DNA of 64,000 bases from Dactylococcopsis salina PCC 8305. Its GTDB lineage: Bacteria > Cyanobacteriota > Cyanobacteriia > Cyanobacteriales > Rubidibacteraceae. Shown in pieces: positions 9,712 to 59,696 of the stretch. Numbering within the stretch: the stretch's first letter is position 1; each line of letters opens with the position of its first letter. The stretch is taken from positions 682,001 through 746,000 of the forward strand of contig NC_019780.1 of assembly GCF_000317615.1 (NCBI RefSeq), in the 5' to 3' direction. Below the pieces are notes generated by a model, which saw only the letters and a list, made by a program, of their open reading frames with translations, searched no databases and was not told the origin of the DNA. The translations under genes and the position numbers were made by a program.

Positions 9712-9840
9712 GTTCCATGGCACGTCTCCACGCGAAATCCAACATCAATTATAAGGAATTACCTGAACCTGATATAATCTACGGTTTTTAGAAGGAAATG
9801 TTGGGTTACGTTATCACTTCACCCAACCTACTCTGTCTTG
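9712..9840. repeat. Remnants of dispersed repeats
   Basis: Contains GAGACGTTCCATGG joined to CACGTCTCC, a near-palindrome, then a degenerate copy of the GTTGGGT...ACCCAACCTAC unit running up to the clpC stop codon. No gene is seen. Confidence 0.7.
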
Positions 9841-15339: not shown

Positions 15340-15760
15340 AACTACATTGTAGGGTGGGCATCGCCCACCATCAAGTAACTTTGCGCTTATTACTGTAACT
15401 TTACTTTTCCAAAATGGTATAAGATGGTGTTGGGTTTCGCTTCCCTCTTTTCAGTGATCAGTGACCAGTGATCAGTGACCAATGATCAGTGAATTAATAA
15501 TCTAAGTAGTCAATTTGTAGCACTAATTGTTCACGCATGGTATTACTAATTAAGTTGGAAAACTACTGGTCACTGGTCACTGCTTAACTGGTCACTGATT
15601 AGTGTTGGGTTTCGCTTCTCTACACCCAACCTACTTTGCTAAAAATTTCGGCAATAGTGTTGGGTTTCGCTTCTCTACACCCAACCTACTTTTTTCGGCA
15701 ATAGTGTTGGGTTTCGCTTCTCTACACCCAACCTACTTTTTTCGGCAATAGATAAAGAGA
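15340..15760. repeat. Cluster of dispersed repeats
   Basis: From left to right: GTAGGGTGGGCATCGCCCACC hairpin near 15350; the end of a MITE-like unit (GTAACTTTACTTTTCC... AAAATGGTAT) at about 15390-15420; CAGTGATCAGTGACCAGTGA units at 15455-15500 and again in inverted form at 15560-15600; then three copies of GTGTTGGGTTTCGCTTCTC plus CACCCAACCTACTTT starting at 15602, 15657 and 15704. The last copies run into the 3' end of the Uma2 pseudogene. No intact gene lies in 15291-15739. Confidence 0.85.
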
Positions 15761-29210: not shown

Positions 29211-29313
29211 ATACCATTTTGAAGAGTTGGTGCTACGGTATCGACTACTTAAGCCCCCCCAACCCCCCAAGTTTGGGGGGCTTAAATGTAACTTTACTTT
29301 TCCAAAATGGTAT
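29211..29313. mobile_element. MITE-like element, 103 bp
   Basis: Terminal inverted repeats ATACCATTTTGAAGAG and the complement of CTTTTCCAAAATGGTAT match at 14 of 16 positions. Inside is a GC-rich hairpin, AAGCCCCCC ... GGGGGGCTT. There is no coding capacity. A related copy lies at about 58090-58188 inside hsp20 debris, and an end fragment lies at about 15395-15421. Confidence 0.7.
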
Positions 29314-29317
29314 TAGT

Positions 29318-29521
29318 ATGAGTGATTATCAATCGTTAAACCATCGCCACCTGTTCTCAAAACTAAGCAAATACGCTCGTAATAGCTTTACAGGGCGTTT
29401 GAGCATCAAAATCGACAATTCCCCCTCATGGCCTATTTATTTCAACAGTGAATGTGATGGAAAACTTAGTTGCGATCGAAGTGGAAAAACAACTCAAAAG
29501 TTTTCCCCAAAAGAGAATTGA
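29318..29521 (+). pseudogene. PatA-type response-regulator N-terminal fragment
   Basis: From ATG 29318 about 43 codons read MSDYQSLNHRHLF, then SKLSKYARNSFTGRLSIKI, the start of the DUF4388/PatA N-terminal domain that precedes a receiver domain in cyanobacterial proteins. Similarity ends near 29446 in SWPIYFN, where the sequence joins the start of comFB. The remaining codons are comFB out of frame. Confidence 0.6.
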
Positions 29522-29765
29522 AAACATCAGCAAGTTAGATGTGATCACTTATGCCCTCAACCGACTTCCTCCTCTCTATGCTGCGAGTAAAGAAGGCATG
29601 GCAAAGCAAACCGAAGAAGGTAAAGAAAATTACCAAGAAAAAATTAAACTCACGGTTCAACTTGCCATTGCTCAAGTGAGACGAGACCCGATTCGTAAAG
29701 CGACTCGCATCACTTCGCCTTCTTATTTAGGTAAAATGTCTGTAGAGGGGAGTGATGGAGTTTGA
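29457..29765 (+). CDS. ComFB-family protein
   Basis: A 102-residue ComFB protein (late competence development domain): MENLVAIEVEKQLKSF ... ISKLDVITYALNRLPPLYAASKEGM. ComFB-type proteins in cyanobacteria have been linked to cyclic-nucleotide binding and to competence. I chose ATG 29457 over GTG 29448. The last residues (GKMSVEGSDGV) are not ComFB-like: they are encoded by the leader of the BrnT cassette that begins near 29732, and the frame ends inside brnT. Confidence 0.8.
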   Translation: MENLVAIEVEKQLKSFPQKRIENISKLDVITYALNRLPPLYAASKEGMAKQTEEGKENYQEKIKLTVQLAIAQVRRDPIRKATRITSPSYLGKMSVEGSDGV

Positions 29766-30057
29766 ATGGGACGAAGGCAAACGAGAAAGCAACTGGCAAA
29801 AGCACGGTGTAGATTTTGAAGACATCACACCTATATTTGAAACAGACCCCGTGCAATGGATTGATAATCGCAAAAATTACGGTGAGGAACGGGTTAATGT
29901 TTTAGGAGAAGTTGAAGGTGATATATTTTTTGTCACCTACACTAAACGAAATACAAAATACCGTCTAATTAGCGCAAGGAGGGCAAATAGCCGTGAAAGA
30001 AGAAAATATTACCAGAGTCTCTTGGGAAGAATGGAAACAGATGAAGGGCAAAACTGA
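29755..30057 (+). CDS. brnT: BrnT-family ribonuclease toxin
   Basis: A 100-residue type II toxin with an RelE-like RNase fold. Family marks: FEWDEGKRESNWQKHGVDFED at the start, WIDNRKNYGEERVNVLGEV in the middle and RLISARRANSRERRKYY near the end. ATG 29755 is preceded by GAGGGGAGT. The GTG three bases upstream is less likely. It overlaps the stop of comFB by 11 bp and the start of brnA by 65 bp, so translation is probably coupled. The toxin is expected to be neutralised by the BrnA-like partner that follows. Confidence 0.87.
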   Translation: MEFEWDEGKRESNWQKHGVDFEDITPIFETDPVQWIDNRKNYGEERVNVLGEVEGDIFFVTYTKRNTKYRLISARRANSRERRKYYQSLLGRMETDEGQN

Positions 30058-30214
30058 CTGGGAAAAAGTGCATAACATGACCGAGGAAGAAATCGAACAA
30101 AATGCACTCAACGATCCAGACAGCTATCCCTATACCGAGGAAGAATTAGAGCAGATTGAACCCGTAGTCTATCATGGTTTTGAGGAATGGAGAAAAGCCC
30201 ATAAAAAGACATAA
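29993..30214 (+). CDS. brnA: BrnA-type antitoxin
   Basis: A 73-residue acidic protein beginning at GTG 29993 inside brnT, with a strong ribosome site (AAGGAGGG) 9 bp upstream. The sequence (KEENITRVSWEEWKQMKGKTDWEKVHNMTEEEIEQNA ... DDPDSYPYT-like) matches the short antitoxins that follow BrnT. They bind the toxin and autorepress the operon through a ribbon-helix-helix part, which is reduced here. Relics of a similar gene form the N-terminus of the gene at 46219-46461. Confidence 0.8.
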   Translation: MKEENITRVSWEEWKQMKGKTDWEKVHNMTEEEIEQNALNDPDSYPYTEEELEQIEPVVYHGFEEWRKAHKKT

Positions 30215-30303: not shown

Positions 30304-30376
30304 TGCCAGGACGCAGATTTGAACTGCGGACACGGGGATTTTCAGTCCCCTGCTCTACCAACTGAGCTATCCCGGC
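30304..30376 (-). tRNA. tRNA-Phe(GAA)
   Basis: A 73-nt cloverleaf on the minus strand: acceptor GCCGGGA/TCCTGGC with discriminator A, anticodon loop CTGAAAA (anticodon GAA), T-loop TTCAAAT. CCA is not encoded. Confidence 0.95.
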
Positions 30377-46229: not shown

Positions 46230-46461
46230 TACTCTCCTCTACATACATTTTACTTCCTTCATTAAACACCCACGCCTTGCCGTCAGGGTCCCGATCGCGC
46301 GTTCTCTCAATCAGAATTTCATTCCCCTTTTCCTTCCAACGGGTTAAGGTTTTTCTATCGACCCCTAACCGCTTGGACAAACTTCGCGCTGAAAGACCAG
46401 ACGGAGCTGTTGTTTTTCCCCCATTCTTCCCAAGAGACTCTGGTAATATTTTTTCTTTCAC
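46219..46461 (-). CDS. Small HTH protein, chimeric
   Basis: An 80-residue protein with a helix-turn-helix core (SGLSARSLSKRLGVDRKTLTRWKEKGNEILIERTRDRDPDGKAWVF). Its first codons from GTG 46461 match the start of brnA at 29993 (GTGAAAGAA ... ATTACCAGAGTCTCTTGGG), shifted by one base so that a different peptide is read. Its last residues (SKMYVEESNGV) come from the BrnT leader. So the centre is one domain and both ends are remnants of toxin-antitoxin cassettes. It may still be functional as a DNA-binding protein. Confidence 0.6.
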   Translation of the reverse strand: MKEKILPESLGKNGGKTTAPSGLSARSLSKRLGVDRKTLTRWKEKGNEILIERTRDRDPDGKAWVFNEGSKMYVEESNGV

Positions 46462-46640
46462 GGCTGTTCGCCCTCCTTGTCTAACCTTTTATAAGGGAAA
46501 TGCTGAACTGGCTGCATTTGCTCCAAAATATCATCCCCCAAACAATGATTGTCCCAAAAGGCTTGCTCTTCTTCTTCAGTTTCAAATTCTGGTATAGACT
46601 CCCAATTGGTAATTTCTTCTCGGTTTTGTGCTTGAGTCAT
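46458..46640 (-). CDS. Antitoxin-like short acidic protein
   Basis: 60 residues, Glu-rich (ITNWESIPEFETEEEEQAFWDNHCLGDDIL), of the CopG/BrnA-like antitoxin type that follows BrnT-like toxins. Its start overlaps the toxin stop by 4 bp and its end overlaps the next gene by 4 bp, so the module is translationally coupled. Confidence 0.7.
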   Translation of the reverse strand: MTQAQNREEITNWESIPEFETEEEEQAFWDNHCLGDDILEQMQPVQHFPYKRLDKEGEQP

Positions 46641-46909
46641 AATCCCTCCTGATAGCGTCTTTGTTCTTTTCGTGTTGCTCTGTAAGCTGTAATGGTTCGG
46701 ATTTTGCCGTTTCGGATAGTGTAAATGATTGTGAGTATGCGTCCTGCTTCTGTTTGTCCAAGCGTTGCAAATCTTTGCTCTTCTCTTACACTGTAGGCTT
46801 TAGCTTCCAATCGGTTTGGATCGCTAAAAATTTGCTCTACTTCATCAGCACTCACCTGATGCTCTGCAATATGATCAAGGTTAGCTTTATCCCAGTCGAA
46901 CTCAAGCAT
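46637..46909 (-). CDS. BrnT-like toxin
   Basis: About 90 residues from ATG 46909 (FDWDKANLDHIAEHQVSADEVEQIFSDP ... ILTIIYTIRNGKIRTITAYRATRKEQRRY), a diverged BrnT-type RNase. I prefer this ATG over the one 15 bp upstream because AGGAGAG lies 5 bp before it and the leader matches those of the other two brnT starts. It shares the coupled-gene layout with the antitoxin at 46458-46640. Confidence 0.75.
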   Translation of the reverse strand: MLEFDWDKANLDHIAEHQVSADEVEQIFSDPNRLEAKAYSVREEQRFATLGQTEAGRILTIIYTIRNGKIRTITAYRATRKEQRRYQEGL

Positions 46910-46939
46910 TACTCTCCTGTACATACATTTTATATCAGG

Positions 46940-47132
46940 TTCGGGTAATTCCTTATAATTGGTGTTGGGTTTCGCGTGGAGACGTTCTCATCCTAATCAC
47001 AAAGCTATAGCGCTACGCGCTAGGCAAGAGGCTTGCATGCAAAAGGCAAAAGTAAGTTATAGGTGAGTTTCAACATTTTGGAATGTCCTAACCTGATTTT
47101 GTAGCGCTATAACAAGAGACCGAAATGTGAGC
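46940..47132. repeat. Dispersed repeat fragments before the TA locus
   Basis: CGGGTAATTCCTTATAATTGG plus GTTGGGTTTCGCGTGG at 46942-46978, CTATAGCGCTACGCGC with GGCAAGAGG near 47008-47035, and TAGCGCTATAAC near 47105. No gene is seen. Confidence 0.65.
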
Positions 47133-58089: not shown

Positions 58090-58188
58090 AAAGTCAAGTT
58101 ACCTTAAAGCCCCCCAACCCCCCAAGTTTGGGGGGCTTAAGTCGTCGATACTGTAGCGCCAATTCTCCAAAATGGTATTAGATTGACC
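58090..58188. mobile_element. Second MITE-like copy, degenerate
   Basis: Reverse-oriented relative of 29211-29313: on the minus strand it begins AATACCATTTTGGAGAAT, has GGCGCTACAGTATCGACGACTT, and the AAGCCCCCC/GGGGGGCTT hairpin, ending near GTAACTTGACTTTA. It interrupts the 3' end of the hsp20 pseudogene. Confidence 0.65.
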
Positions 58189-59625: not shown

Positions 59626-59696
59626 AAAAAGTAGGTTGGGTGGAGAGAAACGAAACCCAACACCCATTATAAGCAATTACCCGAACTTGATATAAC
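59626..59696. repeat. GTAGGTTGGGTGG-type repeat joining two pseudogenes
   Basis: AAGTAGGTTGGGTGGAGAG with CGAAACCCAACACCCATTA and TAAGCAATTACCCGAAC at 59628-59693. It is the joint of the chimeric open frame. Confidence 0.85.

Follow-up and report, generated by a model that had tools for sequence, protein, structure and literature searches.

Whether a BrnT toxin cassette captures the genes that lie upstream of it is the question raised by two open reading frames (ORFs) in a 64,000 nt stretch of the Dactylococcopsis salina genome (hereafter, the window), both of which end in a peptide translated from the DNA preceding a brnT start codon. The first-pass annotation had read the two tails as GKMSVEGSDGV, in a ComFB-type ORF, and SKMYVEESNGV, in an HTH ORF, and both readings were confirmed: ORF 29448-29765 (+) ends in ...SPSYLGKMSVEGSDGV and ORF 46461-46219 (-) in ...NEGSKMYVEESNGV, each followed by a stop codon. 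The tail does come from the brnT leader, although this portion is translated as AAA ATG TCT GTA GAG, beginning with the second base of the motif TAAAATG quoted there; read from its first T, the initial codon is a stop. A third copy of the leader and the fragmentary nature of the ComFB ORF were both absent from that annotation. No publication dealing with this locus turned up in a literature search.

Three copies of the shared DNA, AAAATGTMTGTASAGGRGAGTRATG, are present in the window, compared to a mean of 0.00 in 100 shuffled sequences, and each copy of the 25-nt leader ends on the start codon of a brnT gene (Table 1). Its first 20 nt were found with zero mismatches at just three sites of the 3.78 Mb single-contig genome, which are the three leaders; a fourth genomic match of the leader, with two mismatches, has no brnT behind it, and a reversed control pattern likewise gave one match. 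Leader copies 2 and 3 share 24 of the 25 positions, copies 1 and 2 share 22, and copies 1 and 3 share 21. The left edge of the similarity is sharp, with 5/30 (copies 2-3), 7/30 (copies 1-2) and 4/30 (copies 1-3) identical positions in the 30 nt 5′ of the leaders, and the ca. 10 nt 5′ of copy 1 matched nothing that we found. When we searched for the ends of a mobile cassette, the comparisons within the window gave no shared right end (copies 2 and 3 have 12 of 60 identical positions, ungapped, 3′ of the leader), and neither element ends nor a transposase accounting for movement of the leader were found.

Table 1. Features around the ComFB-brnT junction and around the second brnT site of the window, with positions numbered from the first nucleotide of the window.
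Feature	Position	Strand	Remarks
N-terminal remnant of DUF4388/PATAN-ComFB gene	29318-29521	+	ca. 43 codons alike (MSDYQSLNHRHLFSKLSKYARN...WPIYFN), then out of frame
ComFB-domain ORF, C-terminal piece of DUF4388/PATAN-ComFB gene	29448-29765	+	PF10719, E 2.6e-20
Leader copy 1	29733-29757	+	Ends on ATG of brnT copy 1
brnT copy 1, full length	29755-30057	+	PF04365, E 2.1e-25, 89.3 bits vs cutoff 34.5, profile 1-77/77
60-nt block, end of brnT1 and start of partner ORF	29975-30034	+	95% identical to 46479-46421 (-)
Putative antitoxin partner of brnT1, 73 aa	29993-30214	+	Overlaps brnT1
tRNA-Phe	30304-30376	-	3′ flank unlike the window in 4/4 congeners compared
brnT copy 2, truncated, 46 aa	46089-46229	-	PF04365, 34.9 bits vs cutoff 34.5, profile 1-39/77
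HTH ORF	46461-46219	-	HTH domain, family-like end; N-terminus translated from the 60-nt block in a third frame
Leader copy 2	46251-46227	-	Ends on ATG of brnT copy 2; doubles as last codons of HTH ORF
60-nt block, second copy (59 nt)	46421-46479	-	Also last codons (KEGEQP and stop) of short CopG-like ORF, by eye
CopG-like antitoxin of brnT3, short, 60 aa	46458-46640	-	PF12441, E 2.6e-4, profile 2-35/79
brnT copy 3, full length	46637-46909	-	PF04365, E 3.5e-19, 69.3 bits, profile 1-77/77
Leader copy 3	46931-46907	-	Ends on ATG of brnT copy 3; frame B has no ORF upstream
Dispersed repeat abutting leader copy 3	46933-46985		Further copies at 9722-9774 and 59651-59692

The capture proposal holds that a BrnT cassette takes up upstream genes in a fixed frame and couples toxin translation to them through a stop/start overlap of 11 nt, and that two ORFs end through the same leader in the same frame speaks in its favor. 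Of the three frames at copies 1 and 2, A is closed by the leader's TAA and C by its TAG, or earlier, and B, that of the two tails, is the sole one open through the leader, ending at a TGA within the codons for MEFEW, the conserved start of BrnT. Because only frame B reaches past the leader into brnT, both the shared frame and the near-identical tail are forced on the two ORFs, so that their "same frame" is close to forced and is weak evidence. Even with random upstream frames, the second case would agree with the first one time in three, by simple arithmetic. Copy 3 also argues against capture, having no upstream gene in frame B, which is closed by a TGA two codons before the AAA. Its leader has TAC, and frame C, which is the brnT frame itself, is open there.

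Further brnT loci were examined, since the first-pass annotation had proposed to check whether the upstream frame is always the same. The gene is abundant, being present, at a threshold of E 1e-10, in at least 187 of the order's 291 genomes and also in 6/9 genomes of the family, with that of D. salina counted in the former. We fetched 76 brnT loci, the best-scoring of a much longer list together with two from the D. salina genome, and kept 71 after dropping four duplicates and one partial match. Twenty upstream ORFs of at least 60 codons were found at 19 of these best-scoring 71 loci, with frames distributed 8/6/6; three of the 20 overlap the brnT start, and none does so by 11 nt. The expected constancy thus failed both at these loci and at copy 3, which, along with the truncation of the brnT gene behind the HTH ORF, makes capture in a fixed frame quite improbable. 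A stop in frame B occurs within 14 nt in 40 of the 71 other brnT genes. The leader itself precedes none of the best-scoring 71 other brnT loci, the nearest case being a Chroococcidiopsidaceae brnT (L053) with three mismatches in a 16-nt core. In the 290 other genomes of the order, a 21-nt pattern with at most one mismatch gave three matches, none of them before brnT, and the leader as an exact pattern was absent from GTDB and viral contigs. Taken together, the genome, order, GTDB/viral and brnT-locus searches led us to reject the idea that the leader is a widespread element.

The second point in favor of capture is the ComFB ORF, because comparison with congeners shows an ORF that has lost its native end, with the brnT leader/start junction in its place. 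In the congeners G082, G063 and G012, ComFB is the C-terminal part of a single long open frame, which spans 428 aa in G082, and the proteins end in ...SPNDVSAEHPH, ...SRDQV and ...SKEQNSH, respectively. The undivided gene of G082 is flanked by an MFS gene and ispG; G063 and G012 also have the MFS gene nearby, and after the stop comes the same ispG-end DNA. The window retains the MFS gene and, from 29318, the first codons of the long gene, starting as the G082 protein does (MSDYQTLNHRYLFTKLSKYARN) and with a 71% match to G012 DNA over 29318-29450, and the ComFB domain then follows in another frame, from which it follows that the middle of the gene is gone. Accordingly, the two domains do not share one open frame here, as they do in a DUF4388-ComFB gene, since the parts lie in different frames and the middle is missing; in Pfam, the G082 protein matches both domains and the N-terminal part by itself had no match. 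A protein search with ComFB found matches in 5/9 genomes of the family, including that of D. salina. The ComFB ORF starts at GTG 29448 or ATG 29457, its final 10-11 residues are supplied by the brnT leader and start and differ from the tails of its relatives, and its stop is the TGA situated 11 nt inside brnT copy 1. To the right of it lie brnT, tRNA-Phe and then a block located elsewhere in the congeners. Gene ispG is at 3.09 Mb in the D. salina genome, and no ComFB end was seen beside it by eye in the 500 nt read there. Separating the MFS gene from the ComFB remnant is a hairpin-bearing repeat (29211-29316), similar copies of which are found near 58090-58181 and 15394-15423.

The ComFB domain has not decayed, given that its pN to G082 (0.23) is like that between the undivided copies of G082 and G063 (0.24) and that there are no stops in its 105 codons, so that the product may still be made and used; this counts against plain decay. 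Its 11-nt overlap with brnT makes it possible that translation of the toxin gene is coupled to that of ComFB. The breakpoint beside the BrnT cassette is not special, because genes are only loosely ordered in these genomes, as seen for the 3′ flank of the mnh gene, which differs in 4/4 relatives compared (see also tRNA-Phe in Table 1). The flanks of the ComFB-brnT site were compared with few congeners.

The HTH ORF was said to end by the same mechanism, and this part of the claim was not supported, because its end fits its family; the ComFB ORF did acquire its closing codons and stop from the leader and start of brnT. With an E threshold of 1e-3, HTH homologs were found in 45 of the 386 genomes of the phylum, D. 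salina included. As the first queries included the tail, the search was redone without it, which returned 21/386 genomes, again counting D. salina. The tail comparison started from 20 loci, 18 of them distinct, of which four near-identical rows were excluded and 14 used, some pairs still being close. An aromatic residue is found nine positions after a conserved W in 10 of these 14 homologs (counting from the second W in L165), as is the Y of KMYV here, and at positions 7, 8, 8 and 12 in the other four; among random tails, 73 of 5000 (ca. 1.5%) equalled or exceeded the score of the real tail. The HTH ORF thus probably has its own, not a captured, end, and the leader would double there as HTH coding sequence, which argues further against capture. 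The start of the ORF is not native-like, since it consists of the 60-nt block, which a 1-nt indel has put into a third frame.

This raises the alternative that the leader derives from the 3′ end of an HTH gene. An initial overlap of HTH and brnT would then have been followed by movement of brnT copies together with the last 25 nt of that gene. That KMYV suits the usual end of the HTH family agrees with such an origin, and one homolog lies in an open frame of 103 aa, so small HTH ORFs can exist, but the 29 other homologs read are all at the end of open frames of at least 195 aa (taken from stop to stop, starts not determined). Moreover, the D. salina genome has just one HTH match, and the Chroococcidiopsidaceae brnT mentioned above has TAAAATGTATATACA in front with no upstream ORF running into it. 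We therefore regard this origin of the leader as unlikely.

Both brnT sites of the window appear to carry recombined modules. PF04365 scored above its cutoff over the whole domain in brnT copies 1 and 3, as befits BrnT toxins; copy 2 is a truncated gene. In a BrnT/BrnA module the toxin gene is followed by an antitoxin with a DNA-binding domain, and such an antitoxin was recognized behind neither copy 1 nor copy 3: the partner of brnT1 has no RHH domain and no Pfam family above cutoff, and that of brnT3 scored 22.1 bits, under the PF12441 cutoff of 28; an NCBIfam search gave no useful name. The brnT1 partner resembles a Stanieria plasmid protein encoded near an integrase gene. The DNA of cassette copy 1 gave one partial match among plasmids, in a Stanieria plasmid, and a DNA search of plasmids and phages with the array cassettes gave no match. 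Elsewhere in the genome, positions 1501-1710 of locus L007 contain a 5′-truncated brnT and a partner related to copy 1 (72% over 209 nt). Two cyanobacterial plasmids have, near a tyrosine recombinase gene, either a BrnT gene with its small partner (L180) or a gene resembling such a partner (L187).

The second site, ca. 16 kb away, comprises a full-length brnT, a truncated brnT, a shortened antitoxin, the HTH ORF, the leader and the 60-nt block, and there the leader and the block are also read in other frames. A dispersed repeat, GTTGGGTTTCG...AGACGTTC (46958-46987), lies just 5′ of brnT3, and another copy (L007 1399-1428) is near the truncated brnT of L007; such dispersed repeats may help break brnT modules. 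A further repeat of ca. 110 bp (47005-47116) is 87% identical to another stretch of the genome (L048) and, over 54 bp, 98% identical to a stretch of congener G082; it looks like a small mobile element.

The resemblance among leaders could also have a regulatory cause, the leader serving brnT as its promoter/operator and ribosome-binding region, with a shared autoregulator or gene conversion maintaining the likeness of the copies. In Brucella, BrnA, which has an RHH domain, is reported to regulate brnTA transcription (PMC11980606). Here, the leader ends at the ATG with AGGAG, and copy 3 has the motif TGTA-TG-TACA; perfect TGTA(0-4)TACA repeats occur upstream of 9/57 brnT genes versus 0/565 control stretches. 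Nevertheless, some upstream sequences had been viewed before the pattern was picked, so that this first test was not blind; of the nine loci, at least three (L112, L116 and L119) are near-alike, and a fresh plasmid set yielded 1/12 versus 1/142. A BrnA-like operator was thus suggestive in the first set and unconfirmed in the fresh one. In addition, the repeat is not intact in leader copies 1 and 2, and a complete DNA-binding domain was found in neither partner. A sigma-70 promoter was discarded, as none of the three leaders gave a sigma-70-like hit, and RNA structure across the leaders was inconsistent (z of -1.06, +2.25 and -1.58). On balance, a regulatory region kept alike in this way is a tentative and rather doubtful explanation.

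A different role is suggested by the axe-txe operon, where a minigene inside the operon has been reported to affect Txe toxin translation (PMC8708949). The leader would then be a minigene, M(S/Y)V(E/Q)(G/E)S(D/N)(G/A)(V), controlling toxin translation, with which the upstream ORFs merged accidentally. Its ATG and stop are retained in all three copies, but copy 3 lacks a Shine-Dalgarno-like sequence before the minigene ATG, and each of the four base differences among the 25-nt leaders is nonsynonymous in frame B, which means that the peptide of the tail has no sign of constraint; a minigene is thus very improbable. Equally hard to credit is that the leader is a functional unit, either minigene or coupling site, exchanged among unrelated BrnT toxins, with the freed ComFB domain driving toxin translation. 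If this were true, ComFB-driven brnT would tie the toxin to competence or second-messenger signalling.

We consider it likely that the two tails arose by accidental fusion of ORFs at rearrangement junctions beside recombined BrnT toxin-antitoxin modules. The comparison with congeners shows that the DUF4388/PATAN-ComFB gene lost its middle and that a junction to the BrnT cassette stands in place of its last codons and stop; with no other frame open there, the ComFB domain now continues into the brnT leader and halts at the TGA of the BrnT start codons. The leader itself would be the ribosome-binding and translation-start region of brnT, with AGGAG or GGGGAG before the ATG, and the shared tails a by-product of it. 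The leader and the 60-nt block may have spread by recombination or gene conversion between modules, instead of by a defined mobile element. As a whole, the locus looks like a local graveyard of recombined toxin-antitoxin modules with common short blocks, which is the best reading of it, and not like a gene-capture device. As a claim of gene capture the locus is weak, and it is ordinary in kind. It nonetheless illustrates that broken genes can acquire codons and stops from adjacent toxin-antitoxin debris, which misleads annotation, and it provides a small natural case of leaders that are alike (24/25 bases) in front of very different toxins.

Compared to known systems, copies 1 and 3 resemble BrnT of type II BrnT/BrnA toxin-antitoxin modules (PF04365), with scores far over the cutoff, and the gene order is the usual one at copy 1, where a partner ORF lies downstream and overlaps the toxin gene; the array differs in that the partners lack a complete RHH domain, copy 2 is truncated and three copies have a common 25-nt leader. 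With the congener DUF4388/PATAN-ComFB protein (PF14332 plus PF10719), the broken gene shares the MFS neighbor, the N-terminal start and the C-terminal ComFB domain, whereas here the middle is missing, the frame has changed and the native tail and ispG neighbor are lost. Finally, the leader is similar to the minigene reported for axe-txe (PMC8708949) in being a short ORF in a toxin-antitoxin operon, located here just before and across the toxin start, and differs from it in that the peptide has no sign of selection and the Shine-Dalgarno sequence is not constant.
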